Below are positions 10,236 through 61,729 of a DNA stretch of 64,000 nucleotides, one piece after another. Made by a program: the position numbers and the translations under genes. The stretch comes from Moheibacter sediminis (lineage in GTDB: Bacteria > Bacteroidota > Bacteroidia > Flavobacteriales > Weeksellaceae): positions 62,001 to 126,000 of the forward strand of contig NZ_FWXS01000004.1 in the NCBI RefSeq assembly GCF_900176425.1, given 5' to 3'. The notes under the pieces are model-generated. The model worked only from the letters and a program-made list of their open reading frames with translations, ran no database searches and had not been told where the DNA came from. The first letter of the stretch is position 1. The number at the start of each line of letters is the position of its first letter.

Positions 10236-13200
10236 ATGAAATGTAACCTGCCTCTTTGGGAAATCCATTCCGGAATTACTCAAAATCTGAAATTCTGTAC
10301 ATCTATTTTATTACTTTTTTCATTCTTTTTATCAGTCTCCGCGCAGACAATACATTATGTGAGGCTAGGGGGTGTGGGTGATGGGAGTAGTTGGGTAAAC
10401 TCTTCAGGTAGCTTGCAGTGGTCTATAGATCAATCAAATGCTGGAGATGAAATTTGGGTAGCAAAAGGTGATTATCAGCTTGCTATGTACGAGTCTTATA
10501 AGATGAAAGAAGGGGTAAAGATTTATGGTGGTTTTGTGGGTAATGAAACCAATTTAAATCAACGTAACTGGAAAGCCAATCTTACCGTGTTGATAGGATT
10601 TAGTGCAGCCATATTTGTCAATAATAATGGGCTTAGCTCAGCAGCAGTGTTGGACGGATTTAAGCTTACAGATGCTTGGACTGGAGCGATAGTTAATACT
10701 AATTCATCGCCAATAATTAGAAACTGTATATTCGATGACAATAATGCACCAGCTATCTCCAATACTCAATCTTCTCCAATAATCTATAATTGTATTTTTA
10801 TCAACAATATAATAGGTAATAATGCTCCGATAATATCTAATGCTTATTCCAATCCTGTTATAAGTAATTCATTATTTATTGGAAATCGTTCTTCAATTGC
10901 AGTAATTCATTCCGTACAAGGTAGCCCCACAATCAATAATTGTACTTTTTATAATAATCAATTAACCGGGACAGGGGGAGTAATACATCAAAATGCCGGT
11001 TCAGTCAAGATTAATAATACAATTATATGGGGTAATATATCAGGAAATGGAAATACAGCAGCCAATACTTCAGCTGGTGGAACTATTAGTATCAATTACA
11101 CATTGGCTCAAAATTACAACGGTTCCGGAATAGGAAATTTAAATATTAATCCGCTATTTTTTAATATAAGTAATCTTTCCGGAGATGACGGAATATACGG
11201 CACGGAAGATGATGGTTTAAAACTCCGTTCGGAAAGCCCTGCAATAGATAATGGTGATCCATTGACAAATATAAATGGTGCGTCCGTCCAAGTTGGGGAT
11301 TTGGATATAACGGGAAACGAACGAATTCAAAGAAACCGAATAGACATTGGAGCTTATGAAGGAGGAGTCTGTATATCTTCTACAGAAAGTATTTATGTTG
11401 ATGCTTCTGTCGTAAGTTCCGGTTCTGGTGATTGCTGGGATACTGCTTTCAAAACATTAAAAGAGGCTTTGGATTTTGCGACTTTAAACAGCGAGATTAA
11501 AAATGTTTATATAGCCAAAGGAACTTATTATCCTACAGGAATACAAAATGGAACAGATCGAAATGCAACTTTTCTGATTCCACAAAGAGGAGGAATTGAA
11601 ATATATGGTGGTTATCCGAATGGAGGTGGAGCCAGAGAGGTAAAAACAAATCCAACCATTTTGAGCGGAGATATAGGTAATCCAAATGATATTTCTGACA
11701 ATAGCTATCATGTTATGGTAATGACTGGAACATCTTCTGGAGCCAATCAAGTAGTAATTGATGGTTTAATTCTTACCAAAGGAAACGCTACCAATGGGAC
11801 TCAATTTACTTATAATGGAGTGCTTACCAATCAGAGTGAAGGAGGTGGATTGTTGCTACGCGAAAACGGTAATATCGGTGATAAAATAATTGTTAGAAAT
11901 TGTATAATTAAAGAAAATGTTGCATCTGTTGCTGGAGGTTTGTATTTGTGGGCTTCTTCAGCATTGATTCATCATACGATTATCTCAGATAATTCTGCGA
12001 TAGCAAGCGGTGGCGGTGTATTTATCTACAGTACACAATCTCCTAAAATAGTGAATTCATTAATTTATAATAATACAGCGGCTAATGGGGGAGGGATTTA
12101 TAATTCTAATACATCAACTGTTTTGAATATTATCAATGTAACGATAAGTGACAACTTAGCAAGTAATGATGGTAATAATATCCATAACAATACGGGGGCA
12201 ACCATCAATATTGTAAATTCAATCGTTTGGGGTGCAAATGCTGCAAAAAATATTTTAAACCAAGCAATTATTAATGCTTCTTACAGTGATATTTTACAGG
12301 TTAATGGAGTTTTTTTAGGAAATGGAAATATCAATCAAAATCCATTCTTTGAGAATATATCAGAAGGTAATTATAGTCCTTTGAAATGTTCTCCAGTCAT
12401 CAATGCAGGTAATAATTTGGTAATCAATAATGCTCCGTCGGATTCCGGGACATTTGATTTAATTGAGAATTCCCGCATTTATGGAGGCACGGTTGATATG
12501 GGTGCGTATGAAGTTCAGGTCAATCCGGGTAGTACAAGTTTTACAATTTCAACACCTGCTTCAAACATTGCTTGTATAGGGAGCATTTTTCCTGAACTTG
12601 AATTTACAAGCAGCGCAAATTCTCGGGTTTGTTTTATTGTAGATGAAAACGTAACACGGACCATCTCAGCACCTGCAGGAGCAGTATTTTCTGAGGTAAT
12701 TTTTGCAAGCTATGGTAATGCTTCTGGAAATTGTACAACCGGTTTTACAATGGGATCTTGTAATGCTGTCAATAGCAGAAGTGTTATAGAGAATCTGGCA
12801 TTGGGTAATAATAGCTTTATAATTACTCCAAATAATACAACTTTTGGAGATCCGTGCTCGGGAACGGCTAAAAAATTGTACATACAGATAGCATACTCTT
12901 TTCCGGATTATGACTATTCATGGACAAATGACAATCCGGCAATAGGGCTTCCGGCTTCCGGTACAGGAAGTATACCTTCTTTTGAAGCTCTTGAAGCAGG
13001 AGTCGCTAACATTACGCTAATAGCATCATCAGATGCTTGTACGGTTTCAAATCCGGTGACATTTAAATATACCGTTCAGGATTATGATCCTATATATGTA
13101 GATGCAAGTGTAAGTATTTCTGGTAATGGAAAAAGTTGGGCTACAGCTTACAAAACTTTACAAGAGGCATTAAATGTAATTCCGACTCAGCATTGTAAAT

Positions 13201-52435: not shown

Positions 52436-53332
52436 ATGATAAAAGAACTAATTACTGATATAGCTTACGATAAGATTAAATTATCTCAAGGATTAACAAG
52501 AGCAAAACTTATTGCAAATGAAATCAAAAATGACATTTTCTCAAAATGGCTAAATAAAGAACTTGAAGGTTACGAATATCAAGATGAATATTTACCAAGC
52601 TACAGAAAAATTTGGAGTCTAATTGAACTTGTTATGGAAATTCCAGGTGGAAAATTTAATACTTTTCCAGTAATAGTACCAGAAGATATGGATGAAAAAT
52701 TTAAAGAATCTGTAAATAATCATTTTATAATAGAACCCATTTCAATAGTTGAGGCACAAATTGAAAGCATTGATAAGCCAAAAGGATACATTAATTTGCC
52801 ACCACAAATGATTGAAATTTTGGCAAAGCCATTTAAACCACAAATTACTTTATATAGAGGAGTAATTCGTAAAGCTCAAAGAGAAATTGGTAAAGTACAT
52901 TACCAAAGTGTTATTGAATTAACAAAGCAAAAACTCCTTGATACTTTAATGCAGTTAAATAATGAATTTCCAAACCTTGAAAATAAATACGAAATGACAG
53001 AAGAAAATAAAGATAAAGTTCAACATATAATTACAAACAATATTTATGGAAATAGTAATCCCTTGAATATTGCAACAGGAAATAATAATGTGCAAACTAT
53101 AAATATCACTTCATTAAAATCAGAAGATGTAGAAAAATTAAAATCTTATGGAGTGACCGAAGAAGAGGTTGAGGAACTTAAAACAATTATTGAAGCTAAA
53201 ACAAATGACCAGCCAAAATTTGTAGAAAAAACTATGAAATGGTTAGGCGGAGTAACTGCTTCAGTTGCAGGAAGAGGACTATATGAAAATATTCCAGCAA
53301 TTACAGACTTCATTCATAAACTGACATTATAA
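52436..53332 (+). CDS. AbiTii domain protein (abortive-infection type phage defence)
   Basis: 298 residues. The N-terminal MIKELITDIAYDKIKLSQGLTRAKLIANEIKNDIFSKWLNKELEGY with a following PSYRKI is the AbiTii domain, found in abortive-infection proteins. About 195-215 is Asn-rich (NNIYGNSNPLNIATGNNN). A helical segment with VEELKTIIEAKT follows, and the last 35 residues hold a possible membrane helix (LGGVTASVAGRGLYENIPAI). The mechanism is not established; sensing plus membrane or toxin action is a guess. Convergent with the Septu genes; AT-rich. Confidence 0.75.
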   Translation: MIKELITDIAYDKIKLSQGLTRAKLIANEIKNDIFSKWLNKELEGYEYQDEYLPSYRKIWSLIELVMEIPGGKFNTFPVIVPEDMDEKFKESVNNHFIIEPISIVEAQIESIDKPKGYINLPPQMIEILAKPFKPQITLYRGVIRKAQREIGKVHYQSVIELTKQKLLDTLMQLNNEFPNLENKYEMTEENKDKVQHIITNNIYGNSNPLNIATGNNNVQTINITSLKSEDVEKLKSYGVTEEEVEELKTIIEAKTNDQPKFVEKTMKWLGGVTASVAGRGLYENIPAITDFIHKLTL

Positions 53333-53524: not shown

Positions 53525-54199
53525 TCATGAATTATATTTTGGCTGTTTTATCAGCTCATTAAATCTAAATATTATATAGTTACAAAAAGCACTGTACTTT
53601 CCATTACTCTTTTCAGTATAAAATTGTTTTTCAGTTTCCAGAATTTTTTTTGTCCAAGTTACTTTAGAGTGTTTGGCTATTAATTTAGTTTTTGCATCTT
53701 CCCACAAATTAATCCTTAACTCTTTCAAAGGCTGACAGTTTAATTTTAGCAATTCAATATCATATGCTACATTACTGTTATTCCTATCAACCACTTCGCC
53801 AATCAAGTTATACGTTATCAGACTTTCACATACATTTTGATGAGGATTTAAAATTCTAAAAGGAATATTCCCTCTGCTTTTGTCACAATGTTCACCATTA
53901 TTTATACATACCCCAATCATATTGTTATAAATCAACGATAATCTTTTATGATATGCTTCACTATGAGGAGAGTCAACATGTTTTTCTTGCGAGATATAAT
54001 GTTCAACTGAAACATACTTCTCATCAACAATTTTTTTCATACAGTAACCACATAGGTAACCTTGTTCGTTTAATAGTGCCTTTTTTAATTTTTTATCTGT
54101 ATCTCCAAAACCTTTATATGATTTAGGTTCTGGTGTATTATTTCTGTAATCTCTTAGAGTATTGGGTTCTAATACAATCTTCTTCTGAATATACTTCAT
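53525..54199 (-). CDS. ptuB: Septu HNH endonuclease PtuB (TIGR02646-like)
   Basis: 224 residues. An HNH/zinc site is seen at Cys50, Cys53 (YLCGYCMKKI) and Glu66, His67 (VSVEHYIS), with a second pair at Cys98 and Cys105 (IGVCINNGEHCDKSRG) and the NPH block near 118. This is the TIGR02646/PtuB pattern. In Septu, PtuB nuclease is held and activated by the PtuA ATPase to cut nucleic acid during phage infection. Starts 2 bases after the ptuA stop. Confidence 0.85.
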   Translation of the reverse strand: MKYIQKKIVLEPNTLRDYRNNTPEPKSYKGFGDTDKKLKKALLNEQGYLCGYCMKKIVDEKYVSVEHYISQEKHVDSPHSEAYHKRLSLIYNNMIGVCINNGEHCDKSRGNIPFRILNPHQNVCESLITYNLIGEVVDRNNSNVAYDIELLKLNCQPLKELRINLWEDAKTKLIAKHSKVTWTKKILETEKQFYTEKSNGKYSAFCNYIIFRFNELIKQPKYNS

Positions 54200-54201
54200 A
54201 T

Positions 54202-55728
54202 CTAATCATAATCATCAAAATTATCTAAAGCTCTTTGGGTTTCTATATCATCAAGACCTCTTTCATTGATAATGTTGTCCAATACTTGTTTAGCCTTATC
54301 CAATTGCTTAGATTCTAAAAAATCATAAAAGGAAGATAGTAAATCTTTGCCAATGTCTGAGCTTTTTTCAGTACCGAAAGCTTCAAATAATATCGAATTA
54401 TAATCTCGCCCCTTGACAAAATACTCTTTATCTGACACTTTTCCCTCCATTAATCTTCTTAGTAATATGTTATGTTTTATACCTCCAATAATTTCGGGAG
54501 AGTGAGTTGTTATGATATCAAAATCATTAAATGTGCTTTTAACTCCATCAGTATCGTAATACAAATTTTTAAAGAATTCTTTTTTCCATTTAGGATGTAG
54601 GAATGTATCAGGCTCATCAAACAAAAACAAACTTTCATCATTTGTTGAAATAATCTGTTTTAGTCCGTAAATAGATAAAAGTTGTTTCTCACCCTCACTT
54701 AAATCTTGGCTAGATATTTCAATATTTTTTTCTGGAGCTATCTCTTTGACTAGCGTAATTTGAACTTTATCCAATAGCCCCATTATATCTAAAGCCAACA
54801 GAGTTTGAAAAATGTCTTTTTCTGATGCAAATGAATCGTCTGTACTATACCCAGAAAGATTAAATAAAACGTCTGGAATAAAATAAGAAAATGATATGCC
54901 TCTCTTTAGGAATTCAGATTCTTGCGATGCCTTATTAAATTTATCAAGCGCATCTTTGATAATTCCTTTTGCTCCCCAAAATTCTTTTGACGAGCCTTTT
55001 GACCAACTTGGACTTTTTAAAACAAGAGTTATATCAGTAAAACCAACAATACCAAATTTTTCCCTTATAAATTTATACACATCGCCACTTTCCTTACAAA
55101 AAAGACTAAACAGCAATAAATTAAATTGATTAGGATTAAAGTGAAAAATAGGTGCATTAATATTTAATCCTAATGTTTGCTTGTCACTATCTTCACTAAC
55201 AAATGTGAACCAATCTTTAAAGAAATCATAGGTGAATTTTTGAGTTAATTTGCTCAACCTTCCATCAAATCCTGCATAATACAGTACTACATTTTTAGGA
55301 AGTAAATCTTTTACAAGATACTGTGTTTTGAATAAAAAATTGTTCACATCATCATTGTCAAAAATAGAATCCGTATACTCCAGTCTTATCCAATTTTTAT
55401 CAATGTTACTAAACTGTAGTTTTATATAATCAATTCTGGAATCCTTAGAGATCGAAGTTTCTTCCAATACTCTTTCTGCCCTAATGAAATACGATATAGT
55501 AAATTTGAAATCAATTGACTTGATTTTTTTTTCAATATCTTGTAATGTATTAGCTTCGTATAGATTCCCAAATATCTTTAAGATTCCCTCTAACAGGGTT
55601 GTTTTACCAGCACCATTCTCTCCAATAATGACATTGAAAGTATCTTCATTTTGGAACCCTTCTGTAAAGTTGATTTCAAAATCTGAAAGTAACTTATAGT
55701 CTTTTATATATAAATTAAGTAGTTGCAT
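54202..55728 (-). CDS. ptuA: Septu ATPase PtuA (AAA/ABC-type)
   Basis: 508 residues. Walker A GENGAGKTT at residues 36-44, a long middle insert (about 90-330), signature SEGEKQLLSIYGL, Walker B LFLFDEPDTFLHP and switch THSPEII. The C-terminal 90 residues are helical (SSFYDFLESKQLDKAKQVLDNI). This OLD/RecF-like ATPase with adjacent PtuB is the Septu arrangement. Gap to the P-loop gene is 3 bases, so it belongs to the same operon as the restriction genes. Confidence 0.88.
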   Translation of the reverse strand: MQLLNLYIKDYKLLSDFEINFTEGFQNEDTFNVIIGENGAGKTTLLEGILKIFGNLYEANTLQDIEKKIKSIDFKFTISYFIRAERVLEETSISKDSRIDYIKLQFSNIDKNWIRLEYTDSIFDNDDVNNFLFKTQYLVKDLLPKNVVLYYAGFDGRLSKLTQKFTYDFFKDWFTFVSEDSDKQTLGLNINAPIFHFNPNQFNLLLFSLFCKESGDVYKFIREKFGIVGFTDITLVLKSPSWSKGSSKEFWGAKGIIKDALDKFNKASQESEFLKRGISFSYFIPDVLFNLSGYSTDDSFASEKDIFQTLLALDIMGLLDKVQITLVKEIAPEKNIEISSQDLSEGEKQLLSIYGLKQIISTNDESLFLFDEPDTFLHPKWKKEFFKNLYYDTDGVKSTFNDFDIITTHSPEIIGGIKHNILLRRLMEGKVSDKEYFVKGRDYNSILFEAFGTEKSSDIGKDLLSSFYDFLESKQLDKAKQVLDNIINERGLDDIETQRALDNFDDYD

Positions 55729-55731
55729 AAT

Positions 55732-56190
55732 CTAAATTCTACCTGTTATAATCTGATCAACTAAATTTAAAAGATGTTGAGCCGATAATTGATTTAACTC
55801 ATCTTGGACAAATGGGAATTCTTCGCCTCGATAATTAGTAACCTTTAATAACCTATAATTATGTGTATTGGCTAAATGTTCTATATGTTTCGATACATCA
55901 TTATAAACTCTACTAGCACAAATAATAATATCACAATTGTGCTGTAGTATGTAAGCATTCAATCTATCATGTAAATTCCAATGCCATAAATAATCTCCCA
56001 TACTTTCTATACCTACTTTGATTCCATTACATATCAATACATCTGAAATCTCACCTGATGGCAATGGTAATGAATATGTATGTGAAGTATTTATGTAGAA
56101 CCTGATTAATTCTTCTCTAATAATCTTAATTGTTCCTGACTTCCCTCTATCTTGGGCACCCCAAACCTGTATGATTGTTTTTTGCTTCAT
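55732..56190 (-). CDS. Small P-loop NTPase-like protein between HsdS and PtuA
   Basis: 152 residues. Walker A-like GAQDRGKSGT at 11-20 follows a beta strand (KTIIQVW). Later strands DVLICNGIKVGIESM and CDIIICAS give a Rossmann-like order, but no clear Walker B acid or ABC signature. The family is not recognised; it resembles a trimmed P-loop ATPase or kinase. Its ATG overlaps the hsdS stop by one base (TAATG) and ptuA starts 3 bases after its stop, so it is coupled to both. It could regulate or couple the two systems; this is inference. Confidence 0.75.
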   Translation of the reverse strand: MKQKTIIQVWGAQDRGKSGTIKIIREELIRFYINTSHTYSLPLPSGEISDVLICNGIKVGIESMGDYLWHWNLHDRLNAYILQHNCDIIICASRVYNDVSKHIEHLANTHNYRLLKVTNYRGEEFPFVQDELNQLSAQHLLNLVDQIITGRI

Positions 56191-57599
56191 TAGTTTTTAA
56201 ATATTGTTTTTTCAAAGTCAACGAGAGCTTCTTTTACTAAATTATTAGATACATCGTTGTAATCAGAAGCTTGTAATCTTAACTTCCTGATATTATTAGA
56301 AATGATTTGCTGTAGATTTTTATCACTAGGCAAAGGGATTTCTAAATTATAAAAATCACTTGAACTTATTCTAGGCATTCTTACGCCACTATACTTATCA
56401 CTAATCTGTCTTTGGACTATTGATGAAGAAAGTACATCTAAAAAATAAGACTTGTCAATTTTACTTTCATCAATATTAAAAACAAAAAATTCGGAAGAAC
56501 AAACAATATCTGAAAAATCACTTGTATTGTGCCAATATTTATTTAAATAAGGTCGTAACTTTCCATAAATAATAAAGTCTTTAGGAACTTTTAGTGTTTG
56601 ACTTTTTATCTGAGAGCCCTTAACAATTGGTAGGTCTATCAATTTTCCAGTATCTCTCTCTACATTTTCCATTCCTAGGTAATAAAACTCCTCATTAGGA
56701 TATTTATATGTCTCAAAACGAAGGGACTTCCTGTCAATATCATAGTTAAAACATGTGATTAAAGAAGACAGCTTTACAGTGTTATATATAGACTTTATGT
56801 TCAAAGACTGAGATTGTAAGGATAATACATCCCATCGATCTAAATTTTTAAAATTAATAAAGGTCAATCCGTTAATCCCGTGTGAGTTTAAAATATTTTC
56901 AACTCCTAACTCCTTTAATAAATACTTTTCAATTTCTTTTTCCGTTTCTTTAGCTTTTATTTTTGCATTCTCTGCATCTATTATCTTTTGATAATAAGCA
57001 TCTACAAGTTTCTTTTGAGTTATTTCATTAGAAACTTTTTTCTCTTTAGCATCTTCATCATCTAAAGGAGGAAGCGGAATTTCGACTGCTAAAAATAAAT
57101 TTTCCTGTAAATAGTGTCTATTCGTAGTGCCTGTACTACTATTCTCGCAAAACTTAATAAATTCAGGTGTTGTTGTTATCAATGTCAAATAGTGTGGATT
57201 TATTTGAGTGTAATCTACATCAAATGTCCAAAAGTTTCCCGTGATTATCGCTCCATCAACATCTGAAGTGACAACACCAAACGCTCCATTTCTTGCATCT
57301 ATTTTAGATAAGAGAAACTGACCTTCTTTAATCAAAAATTGATTTTTAGTGCCTATTTTATCACCTATTTGTATATCTCTTAAATAAACACCTCCATTAT
57401 TTGTTTTAATAGTAACTCTCTTATATTGAATACCATTCAGTATCTCTACATTTGTTTTATTTCTCTTTAAGAATTTACCTATAGGTACAAAAGGGAAATC
57501 TTGCTTGAATGAAAACGTATCTTCAATCAGATATTGAACACTCCAATTATAGAGTTTAGAAAACTTAACAAATGTAATATTTGAAATATTATTACTCAT
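56190..57599 (-). CDS. hsdS: Restriction-modification specificity subunit (HsdS)
   Basis: 469 residues from the ATG that overlaps the hsdM stop as TAATG (another ATG two codons earlier is possible). Two target recognition domains: about 25-195 (LRDIQIGDKIGTKNQFLIKEGQFLLSKIDARNGAFG) and about 265-430 (YLGMENVERDTGKL, PKDFIIYGKLRPYLNKYW). Each ends in a helical spacer; between them is a long coiled coil (about 200-235, AYYQKIIDAENAKIKAKETEKEIEKY). Determines the DNA target; each TRD reads half of a split sequence. The target cannot be predicted. Confidence 0.93.
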   Translation of the reverse strand: MSNNISNITFVKFSKLYNWSVQYLIEDTFSFKQDFPFVPIGKFLKRNKTNVEILNGIQYKRVTIKTNNGGVYLRDIQIGDKIGTKNQFLIKEGQFLLSKIDARNGAFGVVTSDVDGAIITGNFWTFDVDYTQINPHYLTLITTTPEFIKFCENSSTGTTNRHYLQENLFLAVEIPLPPLDDEDAKEKKVSNEITQKKLVDAYYQKIIDAENAKIKAKETEKEIEKYLLKELGVENILNSHGINGLTFINFKNLDRWDVLSLQSQSLNIKSIYNTVKLSSLITCFNYDIDRKSLRFETYKYPNEEFYYLGMENVERDTGKLIDLPIVKGSQIKSQTLKVPKDFIIYGKLRPYLNKYWHNTSDFSDIVCSSEFFVFNIDESKIDKSYFLDVLSSSIVQRQISDKYSGVRMPRISSSDFYNLEIPLPSDKNLQQIISNNIRKLRLQASDYNDVSNNLVKEALVDFEKTIFKN

Positions 57600-59938
57600 T
57601 ACCATTCAATTACAATCGGTTCAGAATTATTTTTTATCCTTTGTGCTTTACCAGTTTTAGTATTCCATTTATATTGGAATACAGGCTTTAATTCCTTCCA
57701 TAATTCATTTTGTTTACGATATGGTACGTATTGTGGTAAAATAACATCTTTTAACTCATTATCAATGGATGTTCCAGTACTGCTTATTCCTGCTTTTTCA
57801 ACAGTGGCAATAGGAATATCATAATCAAATCTTTCCTTTACAATTTGTCTAACTTCCAATTCTATATCTTCTGTAATTTTTCTTTTCCTTACTCTTAATT
57901 CTTTTTTTACAGAAGCTAAAGGGGCATCCTTACCTCTTAAAGCTAATTGACGCTCTATGTTTTTTAATTCTTCCTCGTATTTTGCTGATACTTCTGCTAT
58001 AGCTTCATTTTCATATTGTTTCCAAAGAGAGACTTCATTCTCTGTGAATTTTTTCATAAACAGAAGACTTGATTTTACAGTAGCTCCACTTTTCATAAAG
58101 ACATCTTGTGGAATAGAAACGATAAGTATTAACTTAGCGACACTTTCAAAATACTGTCTTACTTTTCCCAAATTCTGTGTATTCAACACACCTTCAGGTA
58201 AAACAATACCTAATCTACCTCCTGGTTTAAGTAGATTAATACACCTTTCAATAAACAAAACTTCTGTTAGTCCACTTAATCCTTCTTTCCCAATATATAA
58301 AGTGTCTAATACTGGCTTTCCTTTGGTCGTTTCTTCGTCAAAAAGAAGTTGTTCCATTGCTTTTTCATAAACCTCTGCTCCATACATTTTTTTGTATTTA
58401 GTAATTCGATTTTCATCAGATATTTGGTCAGCTTTGGTTATTAATAATGATTTCTCTACCCTCGCACCAAAAGGAGGATTGGTTAATATAACATCAAATC
58501 TATTTTCAAAAATACCGTTGATATTTAAAAGCCCATCTCTATGATGCACTCCACCATGTCCATCACCATGCATAATCATATTCATTTTGGCAGTTCTTGC
58601 CATTCTTGGATTAGCATCTGTACCAAAAATACAAGAAGCCGAAAGTTTTTCCAGTCTAGAAATAAACTTACTTTTTTCTTTAGCTATTTCTTGTTCACTA
58701 CTTTTTCTAATTTGAGTTTCATACCCCAGTTTTTGAATGATAGTGTTGGAAACTTCTTTCAATTTTTCAAGTTCACTTTCCGCCTTTCCTTCCGATAACT
58801 CATCAAAAGCAAGGTTAACTTTATCTTTTTCAATTTTAATATCTTGTTCTATCTTGTCTCTAACATATTCAAAAGCTTTAATCAAAAATCCACCAGAACC
58901 ACAACAAGGATCACACATCACTTCATCTTCTTGAGGATCCAATATATCTACCATAAAATCAACAATGGTTCTAGGGGTAAAAAATTGCCCTAATTCACCT
59001 CTAAATGTACCTCCTAAGAACTCTTCAAAGGCAATACCTTTTACATCATCGCTAGTTGTGGATAGATTATATTTTTGAAGTTTACGTACTATATCTTTAA
59101 AAGAAGCCTCCTTTATTTTTATCTTTTCATTTTTGTCAAATAATTCATCTTCTTCAAATTCATCCTTTGTCAATTCAAACCAATAATCCATATATGGAAT
59201 ATCATCTTTAGGTCCGTTTCTTTTAATATTAACTGGTCGAATATTTTTCTCGTAATTAGCTTCTTGCTTTTCAAATTGTTTTAGGGTGAAAATATTTTCC
59301 TCATCAGGATTTCTTTCGTACCTTATCTTCATAAAGAGAATTTTACTAATCTCATCAAAGGCAGCTTCAGGTGATAATTTATCATTGTTACGGATTACAT
59401 TATGACATTGGAATAAAAGTTTAGAAAACTCATCACGTTCAAATGCCTTAGTTTGCCCCAATAATTTTTTAATTTTATCATCATTATTTGCTTCTTTGGC
59501 ATTAGGTATATCTAAAATTTCATCACTTAATGTTTTCGGAGTTACATCCAAATTGACTTTGAAAACTTTTGTTTCCTTTTCGTTAGTTGTTACAAAAAAT
59601 GGAGCATTTGCAAAACGAGCATAATTTTGACCTTGATAATAATCTTCACTTTTAATATCTATGTATTCTGCTTTACATTCTACAACAATTATTGGGTTCT
59701 TTCCTTCTTTTTTCTCTTCTTTACTACGCCAGACAACAATATCGGCACTTGCTCTCCCTGTTCCTCTCTTAGAACCAGTAAGCGAAACTTCTTGCTGCAT
59801 TTGTTCTAATTCGTAACCATACGAATTGACTAATTTCAAAATGTATTTTTGCCTTACTTCCTCTTCGGGGGTTTTAACCAATTCTTTACCCTTTAGCGGG
59901 GCATATATTTTATTACCATTTATTCGAAGCTCTAACAT
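57599..59938 (-). CDS. Fused PD-(D/E)xK nuclease and N6-adenine DNA methyltransferase (HsdM-like)
   Basis: 779 residues. Residues 1-140 form an HsdR N-terminal-like nuclease: Asp66 (ASADIVVW), Glu87-x-Lys89 (VVECKAE) and Q102-G-Q-N-Y106, the Q-x3-Y motif of type I endonucleases. Then a HsdM-type methylase: GQFFTPR (about 317), motif I DPCCGSGG (343-350) and motif IV NPPF (487-490). No helicase (translocase) domain is present, and no hsdR gene is in the window. The layout resembles BcgI-type enzymes, where a nuclease-methylase subunit works with one S subunit. It starts 3 bases after the HTH gene. Confidence 0.88.
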   Translation of the reverse strand: MLELRINGNKIYAPLKGKELVKTPEEEVRQKYILKLVNSYGYELEQMQQEVSLTGSKRGTGRASADIVVWRSKEEKKEGKNPIIVVECKAEYIDIKSEDYYQGQNYARFANAPFFVTTNEKETKVFKVNLDVTPKTLSDEILDIPNAKEANNDDKIKKLLGQTKAFERDEFSKLLFQCHNVIRNNDKLSPEAAFDEISKILFMKIRYERNPDEENIFTLKQFEKQEANYEKNIRPVNIKRNGPKDDIPYMDYWFELTKDEFEEDELFDKNEKIKIKEASFKDIVRKLQKYNLSTTSDDVKGIAFEEFLGGTFRGELGQFFTPRTIVDFMVDILDPQEDEVMCDPCCGSGGFLIKAFEYVRDKIEQDIKIEKDKVNLAFDELSEGKAESELEKLKEVSNTIIQKLGYETQIRKSSEQEIAKEKSKFISRLEKLSASCIFGTDANPRMARTAKMNMIMHGDGHGGVHHRDGLLNINGIFENRFDVILTNPPFGARVEKSLLITKADQISDENRITKYKKMYGAEVYEKAMEQLLFDEETTKGKPVLDTLYIGKEGLSGLTEVLFIERCINLLKPGGRLGIVLPEGVLNTQNLGKVRQYFESVAKLILIVSIPQDVFMKSGATVKSSLLFMKKFTENEVSLWKQYENEAIAEVSAKYEEELKNIERQLALRGKDAPLASVKKELRVRKRKITEDIELEVRQIVKERFDYDIPIATVEKAGISSTGTSIDNELKDVILPQYVPYRKQNELWKELKPVFQYKWNTKTGKAQRIKNNSEPIVIEW

Positions 59939-59941
59939 TCT

Positions 59942-60139
59942 CTATTTAGTTGAGTTTAATAATTCTTTGATATCCACTTTTAACAGTTTTGCAATCTCCG
60001 CTAACGTTTCTACAGAAGGCTGCACTTCATTGGTACACCAACGGGAAACCGTACTTGCACTTTTGCCCAGCTCTTTAGCTAACCATTTACTGGTTTTAGA
60101 TTGTTCTGTCAATACAATTTTCAGTCGATTGATTTTCAT
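59942..60139 (-). CDS. Small XRE-type HTH regulator (controller protein candidate)
   Basis: 65 residues, almost only a helix-turn-helix: KTSKWLAKELGKSASTVSRWCTNEVQPSVETLAEIAKLLKV. First gene of the defence operon. C-proteins of restriction systems are small XRE proteins that bind their own promoter to delay restriction. A 21-bp imperfect palindrome 12 bases before its start (60152-60172) is a candidate operator. Confidence 0.9.
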   Translation of the reverse strand: MKINRLKIVLTEQSKTSKWLAKELGKSASTVSRWCTNEVQPSVETLAEIAKLLKVDIKELLNSTK

Positions 60140-61483: not shown

Positions 61484-61729
61484 CCGTTTTCCTGACTGTG
61501 CCGCCCGTTATTGCGACTGCGCACTCCGTTATCCCAACTTCACATTCCGTTATTGCGACTGTACGCCCCGTTATAGTAACTGCGTGTTCCGTTATTCCTA
61601 CTGCACGCTCCGTTATTGCGATTGTACCCTCCGTTATTGTAACTGCACGCTCCGTTTTTCTGACTGCACGTTCCGTTATTGTGATTGCGCTCTCCGTTTT
61701 TTGAACTGTACGCTCCGTTATATCTTCCG
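61484..61729. repeat. 21-bp tandem repeat, 11 full copies plus a partial
   Basis: Units begin with CCGTT(A/T)T and contain a conserved ACTG(C/T) near the middle. Eleven units of exactly 21 bp run from 61484 to 61714, then 15 bases of a twelfth. Copies differ at several positions, mostly outside the CCGTT core. In one + frame it would encode a heptad peptide (SVIATAR-like) but no convincing start or signal exists. It ends 8 bases from the helicase stop. Confidence 0.85.

Follow-up and report, generated by a model that had tools for sequence, protein, structure and literature searches.

Two known systems in which restriction is guarded by a second effector are PrrC and PARIS. PrrC is embedded in EcoprrI, is released when the T4 protein Stp blocks restriction and needs dTTP, while the AriA/AriB proteins of PARIS fire on the antirestriction protein Ocr, releasing a tRNA-Lys nuclease (PMC12707154). 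Among systems built on a PtuA ATPase and a PtuB nuclease, tRNA-Tyr is cleaved by PtuAB from retron Eco7 as well as by PtuAB from one Septu system (PMC11555353, PMC13096335), and another Septu has been reported to target DNA.

The locus described here lies in a 64,000-nucleotide stretch of the Moheibacter sediminis genome (the window, meaning this whole stretch) and combines features of these systems. As in PrrC-EcoprrI, a type I hsd locus here houses an accessory gene (PMC12707154). An ABC-type ATPase and a nuclease stand with the restriction-modification (RM) genes, as such proteins do with the RM genes of PrrC and the antirestriction trigger of PARIS. The locus differs from both in that its putative effector pair is PtuA-PtuB, accompanied by a separate small P-loop protein. 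With the Septu and retron I-A effectors it shares genes for a PtuA-like ATPase and a PtuB-like HNH nuclease, whereas in the window this pair is co-operonic with HTH, HsdM and HsdS genes and the P-loop gene, and no gene of the operon encodes a reverse transcriptase. The leading HTH gene, a MAD2-like methyltransferase and a MAD5-like S subunit recall MADS, the methylation-associated defence system; membership in that system was rejected on scores of 286 and 43.9 bits against NCBIfam cut-offs of 720 and 400 bits, respectively. The other mad genes are absent from the operon. In the literature collection that was searched, no paper on the P-loop family or on HsdMS-PtuAB operons was found.

Gene content of the operon

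The six genes run in the order HTH, HsdM with an HSDR_N domain, HsdS, P-loop, PtuA and PtuB (Table 1). The neighbours of the P-loop gene had been named correctly by the first-pass annotation, as PADLOC recovers HsdS (Specificity_I), PtuA and PtuB, and HsdS is matched by PF01420 as well. An HsdM and an HsdS, the combination by which type I RM is recognized, are both present. The methyltransferase scores 1060 bits against PADLOC MTase_I and the motifs DPCCGSGGF and NPPF can be read in its sequence. No linked HsdR translocase-nuclease occurs in the six-gene run; the two full HsdR loci of type I that were inspected elsewhere in the genome, L083 and L084, have M and S genes of their own. The HSDR_N_2 domain at the N-terminus of the window HsdM keeps a D...ExK...Q-like series (SADIVVW...VVECKAE...YYQGQNY, read in sequence). 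RM-fused enzymes of the BcgI kind cut DNA themselves, and because it carries this domain and series the window HsdM may do the same.

Downstream of the P-loop gene, an ABC-type ATPase of the PtuA kind adjoins an HNH nuclease of the PtuB kind, the arrangement that marks a Septu system. The window PtuA has a Walker A motif (GENGAGKT), a signature (LSEGEKQL) and a Walker B motif (LFLFDEPD), and the HNH residues can be read in PtuB, which reaches 75 bits against the NCBIfam PtuB model (cut-off 150). The best NCBIfam match of PtuA is TIGR04435, restriction system-associated AAA family ATPase (91.5 bits, below the 300-bit cut-off), by its title a family of ATPases that occur with restriction systems.

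The surroundings of the operon resemble a defence island, with an AbiTii gene directly past it. An open reading frame of low-complexity repeats (PVIVTARSVI-like units) adjoins the defence genes. Elsewhere in the genome, the second type I locus (L083:4401-7798) has two opposed HsdS genes with a similar start and an integrase beside them, and the pair looks like a phase-variable specificity cassette.

Table 1. Features in and beside the operon (window positions)
Feature	Position	Strand	Size	Evidence
HTH regulator, Cro/CI type, first of the run	59942..60139	-	65 aa	HTH_3 3.2e-11 (Pfam)
HsdM-type N6-adenine methyltransferase, N-terminal HSDR_N_2	57599..59938	-	779 aa	N6_Mtase 1.6e-35, HSDR_N_2 3.2e-25
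HsdS-like specificity subunit	56190..57605	-	471 aa	Methylase_S (PF01420) 1.7e-9; PADLOC Specificity_I 2.1e-41
Small P-loop gene	55732..56190	-	152 aa, ATG start	ORF list, alignment of 25 members, dN/dS, AF2 model
PtuA-like ABC-type ATPase	54202..55728	-	508 aa	PADLOC PtuA (PDLC00293) 1.2e-61; AAA_21 1.8e-19
PtuB-like HNH nuclease	53525..54199	-	224 aa	PADLOC PtuB (PDLC00322) 2.7e-41
AbiTii gene	52436-53332	+		PF18864 1e-21
Low-complexity repeat ORF	61498-61704

The small P-loop protein

The P-loop gene is real and constrained by purifying selection, because pN against its homologues is only 0.12-0.19 while synonymous change is near saturation (pS 0.53-0.79); where dS is unsaturated, dN/dS is 0.08-0.19. 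Its start is supported by the same N-terminus (MKQKTIIQ) in three homologues of 74-77% identity, and dN/dS together with this common start rules out a chance open reading frame. The stop codon of hsdS and the ATG of the P-loop gene share one base (TAATG, a 1-nt overlap), and 3 nt separate its own stop from the ATG of PtuA. Of the earlier suggestion that the gene is translationally coupled to both neighbours, the tight geometry is borne out, and the coupling itself is plausible from this spacing.

The protein carries a canonical Walker A motif, G11-A-Q-D-R-G-K-S18 (GAQDRGKS), as the first-pass annotation had seen, along with an acidic residue at E47, G65-D66 within S-x-G-D and the sequence C86-D87-I-I-I-C91-A. 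In the family alignment, 25 of 25 members keep GK[S/T] and G65-D66 and have an acid, either D or E, at position 47. G65-D66 mostly falls within an S/T-x-G-D motif after strand 3, and C86-D87 and C91 are nearly invariant. D66 is likely the Walker B equivalent, or magnesium acid, so that the earlier statement that there is no obvious Walker B needs revision; the accompanying statement that a signature motif is missing stands, with no LSGGQ-like signature in the alignment. A Walker A motif combined with an acidic residue is the mark of a P-loop NTPase, and the invariant GK[S/T], D/E47 and GD66 agree with a site that can bind nucleotide.

An AlphaFold2 model (pLDDT 77.6, pTM 0.78), built from 4 sequences with the distant members from sampled genomes left out, has as its best fold match 2yvu (APE1195; E 2.7e-4, TM 0.48, about 11% identity), followed by Ras-like proteins, APS kinases, thymidylate kinases and others. 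With APS kinase, other P-loop kinases and Ras-like GTPases it has the core beta-P-loop-alpha fold in common; it differs from them in that the TM is 0.48 at best, the identity about 11% and no Pfam or NCBIfam family matches. The structure prediction and fold search that had been proposed as a check thus gave a P-loop fold but only generic matches. Its motif and predicted fold place the protein among P-loop NTPases of a generic small type, with no closer assignment.

Sequence searches of the protein gave no above-threshold match in Pfam, NCBIfam or PADLOC, none in PHROGs (single relatives had weak touches only, two of them to thymidylate kinases) and nothing significant by phmmer against PDB sequences. 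It is thus predicted to be a small protein that binds nucleotides, and none of the reference libraries searched contains its family. Three classes of candidate were considered and rejected. Thymidylate, cytidylate and APS kinases have no whole-domain family match over cut-off in Pfam or NCBIfam; a STAND, AAA+ or ABC ATPase is at odds with a length of only 152 aa, the lack of any AAA or STAND model match and the missing signature; and a G protein is at odds with the low TM of the Ras-like structures and with the absence of an NKxD conserved across the family. A match to a housekeeping kinase, named at the outset as the result that would count against a defence role, was not found in the Pfam, NCBIfam and PHROGs searches.

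The kinase-like matches nevertheless raise the alternative of a small enzyme, either an NTPase or a kinase of nucleosides or nucleotides, that alters the pool of (d)NTPs or of a nucleotide signal when the cell is infected, acting upstream of PtuAB and not as a subunit of it. The top fold match to APE1195, the annotated APS and thymidylate kinases after it and a touch of the family profile on the thymidylate kinase 3lv8 (8.8e-4, P-loop region only) are in keeping with such an enzyme. However, the kinase matches span the P-loop region only or have a TM of about 0.5 or less, NMP kinases are longer than the protein (152 aa, with complete relatives at 134-207 aa) and no family library assigns a kinase, and we regard this alternative as unlikely.

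Relatives and their genomic surroundings

The family comprises 25 aligned proteins at 24 loci and is sparse, mobile and mostly without RM linkage. A scan of genome contigs gave three relatives of 74-77% identity in Bacteroidota, two of them named Flavobacterium and Aquimarina, with which the window protein aligns over 152 aa without indels. Profiles built from these three reached distant relatives in sampled Bacteroidota genomes, and single distant relatives occur in Neisseria and on a Thiothrix plasmid; many weak genome matches of profile A2, which covered only the P-loop of proteins of about 230 aa, were set aside. Complete relatives are mostly 134-166 aa. Members were found in 5 of 395 genomes of the class (three of them weak), 5 of 399 genomes of Flavobacterium's family and 7 of 149 genomes of the family to which the window belongs, a low frequency that fits a mobile accessory gene. 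Plasmids and phages held no match to the window protein itself, and plasmids none to three distant members. In viral_contigs, no relative turned up when the window-family alignment and two distant members were used as queries. One genome holds two divergent members within 3 kb of each other near integrase-like genes (L041:7599-8072 and 10396-10815). In Neisseria gonorrhoeae a shortened member lies between nuoF-like and nuoG-like genes (L046:8971-9285), in a record listed as a plasmid that is chromosome-sized (2.17 Mb).

At six of the 24 loci the gene lies inside a type I RM-like operon. L002 has HsdS, P-loop, PtuA and PtuB as in the window, its contig ending within hsdS so that HsdM is out of view. 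In L001 and L003 the order is HsdS, PtuA-like ATPase, HNH and HsdM, with the P-loop gene last and, in L003, one extra gene between HsdM and the P-loop gene. This extra gene (L003:7130-7996; 288 aa) has no Pfam match and by eye resembles a class III nucleotidyl cyclase (FVDILGFS...GIFTRGAITIG). Two type I operons carry HsdR and no PtuAB: L043, with HsdR (in two frames), HsdM, HsdS, an HNH_5 gene and a small gene followed by the P-loop gene, and L072, from the window's own family, where HsdM is followed by two other genes, then HsdS, a gene of 207 aa, the P-loop gene and finally HsdR. In L066 and L075 RM genes occur only at a distance of 2-4 kb. About three quarters of the loci lie outside RM operons, in unrelated accessory settings that include Neisseria nuo genes, phage-integrase neighbourhoods and IS-flanked sites. 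The co-occurrence with ptuA and hsdS that the first-pass annotation had proposed to examine is partial, extending to RM operons at these six loci but failing at most others, and at two of the RM loci lacking PtuAB.

On the tree of the family, the label of lying in an RM operon needs about 3 changes, at least 2 of them forced by supported branches. For at least 3 independent RM placements in 20 loci, P is about 7e-5 under a background of 0.4% of genes, a figure that is assumed, being estimated from three RM loci of the genome that holds the window and not measured. The recurrence inside RM operons, together with the lack of a housekeeping family match, upholds the earlier view of a defence-associated, non-housekeeping P-loop protein, and its sequence and neighbours suggest that the protein probably serves anti-phage defence as a switch or accessory.

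The main rival to a switch is that the gene is a passenger or moron, a mobile, self-contained unit (e.g. a stand-alone anti-phage factor or a toxin-like NTPase) that settles in insertion-tolerant gaps of RM operons and is co-expressed there without being physically tied to either HsdMS or PtuAB. Most relatives sit in unrelated mobile or accessory contexts, L072 has other cargo-like genes between HsdM and HsdS, and RM-PtuAB operons without the P-loop gene exist, all as expected of a passenger. The very tight spacing in the window argues against it, as do the 152 aa free of indels and the 77% identity retained across two different RM-ATPase-HNH operons. We consider this explanation a serious possibility, nearly as likely as the switch.

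That identity comes from the comparison of the window with L001, in which the P-loop proteins are 77% identical over 152 residues, while the HsdM proteins are 31% and the ATPases 25% identical and the HNH genes unalignable. The same small protein is thus kept with two different sets of RM, PtuA-like and HNH genes, its companions having been exchanged or having diverged far. The effector genes vary in a second way. A Flammeovirga plasmid (L087:7713-13377) carries an HTH-HsdM-HsdS core as in the window (HsdM 78% identical over the matched region), in which a single 568-aa AAA+TOPRIM OLD-like gene replaces P-loop, PtuA and PtuB, and the comparison of the two loci indicates an exchangeable effector slot behind the core. 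On Pantoea and Pseudoalteromonas plasmids, HsdM, HsdS, PtuA and PtuB genes occur with no family member among them; given this absence and the missing PADLOC match, the P-loop protein is not supported as a Septu component.

These arrangements bear on the proposal of the first-pass annotation that the protein connects restriction with Septu activation, that is, a dedicated connector that arose to read the state of HsdS and switch PtuAB on. The place of the gene in the window and L002, where hsdS and ptuA flank it, and the company of a PtuA-like ATPase and an HNH gene in L001 and L003, are what such a connector would show. Yet L043 and L072 have RM genes without PtuAB, the HsdMS-PtuAB operons just described do without the P-loop gene, and in L001 and L003 the gene comes last, outside the interval from hsdS to the ATPase. 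The specific link is weakened accordingly, and we hold a dedicated connector to be improbable, the least favoured of the explanations considered; the nucleotide sensor suggested by the same annotation is a conjecture. Since there are RM-PtuAB operons without the P-loop gene and P-loop operons without PtuAB, such operons can do without the gene, and the gene also occurs outside them. Because HsdR operons without Septu carry it, and HsdMS-PtuAB and Flammeovirga operons lack it, it reads as an optional restriction-associated module and no dedicated Septu connector.

A candidate nucleotide-state switch

The explanation that we tentatively prefer, at somewhat less than even confidence and by analogy with described systems, is that the P-loop protein is an optional accessory subunit of RM-type operons, a nucleotide-state switch that gates PtuAB as a back-up effector. 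In this scheme the HsdM-HsdS pair would recognize and methylate DNA, and PtuA-PtuB would fill the slot held elsewhere by HsdR or an OLD-like nuclease. PtuA-PtuB, as the putative effector of the RM part, would probably be a back-up that, in the manner of PrrC and PARIS, fires once the RM complex is blocked. Most likely the P-loop protein would bind the RM complex and, set by its nucleotide state (ATP, GTP or dNTP, presumably with hydrolysis), help to hold or release the effector. The precedents of PrrC and PARIS make HsdMS with PtuAB a candidate guard system, in which the P-loop protein, having two invariant acids, could be the nucleotide switch; such a role is our best guess for it. Two findings weigh against parts of this scheme: two of the six loci in RM operons have no PtuAB to gate, and the window HsdM carries its own predicted nuclease domain, which leaves room for an effector besides PtuAB. 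A broader version, in which the family consists of small nucleotide-state switches common to unrelated RM-linked defence operons, each reading, in the course of an infection, the (d)NTP state and licensing an exchangeable ATPase-nuclease effector (PtuAB here) when RM is blocked, strikes us as doubtful, though less so than the kinase alternative.

The locus brings to light an unnamed P-loop family that appears to be an optional associate of RM-type defence operons. The RM-PtuAB combination would be a candidate guard system with exchangeable effectors, and the retention of the P-loop protein at 77% identity amid diverged or exchanged RM and effector genes points to a shared, testable function.
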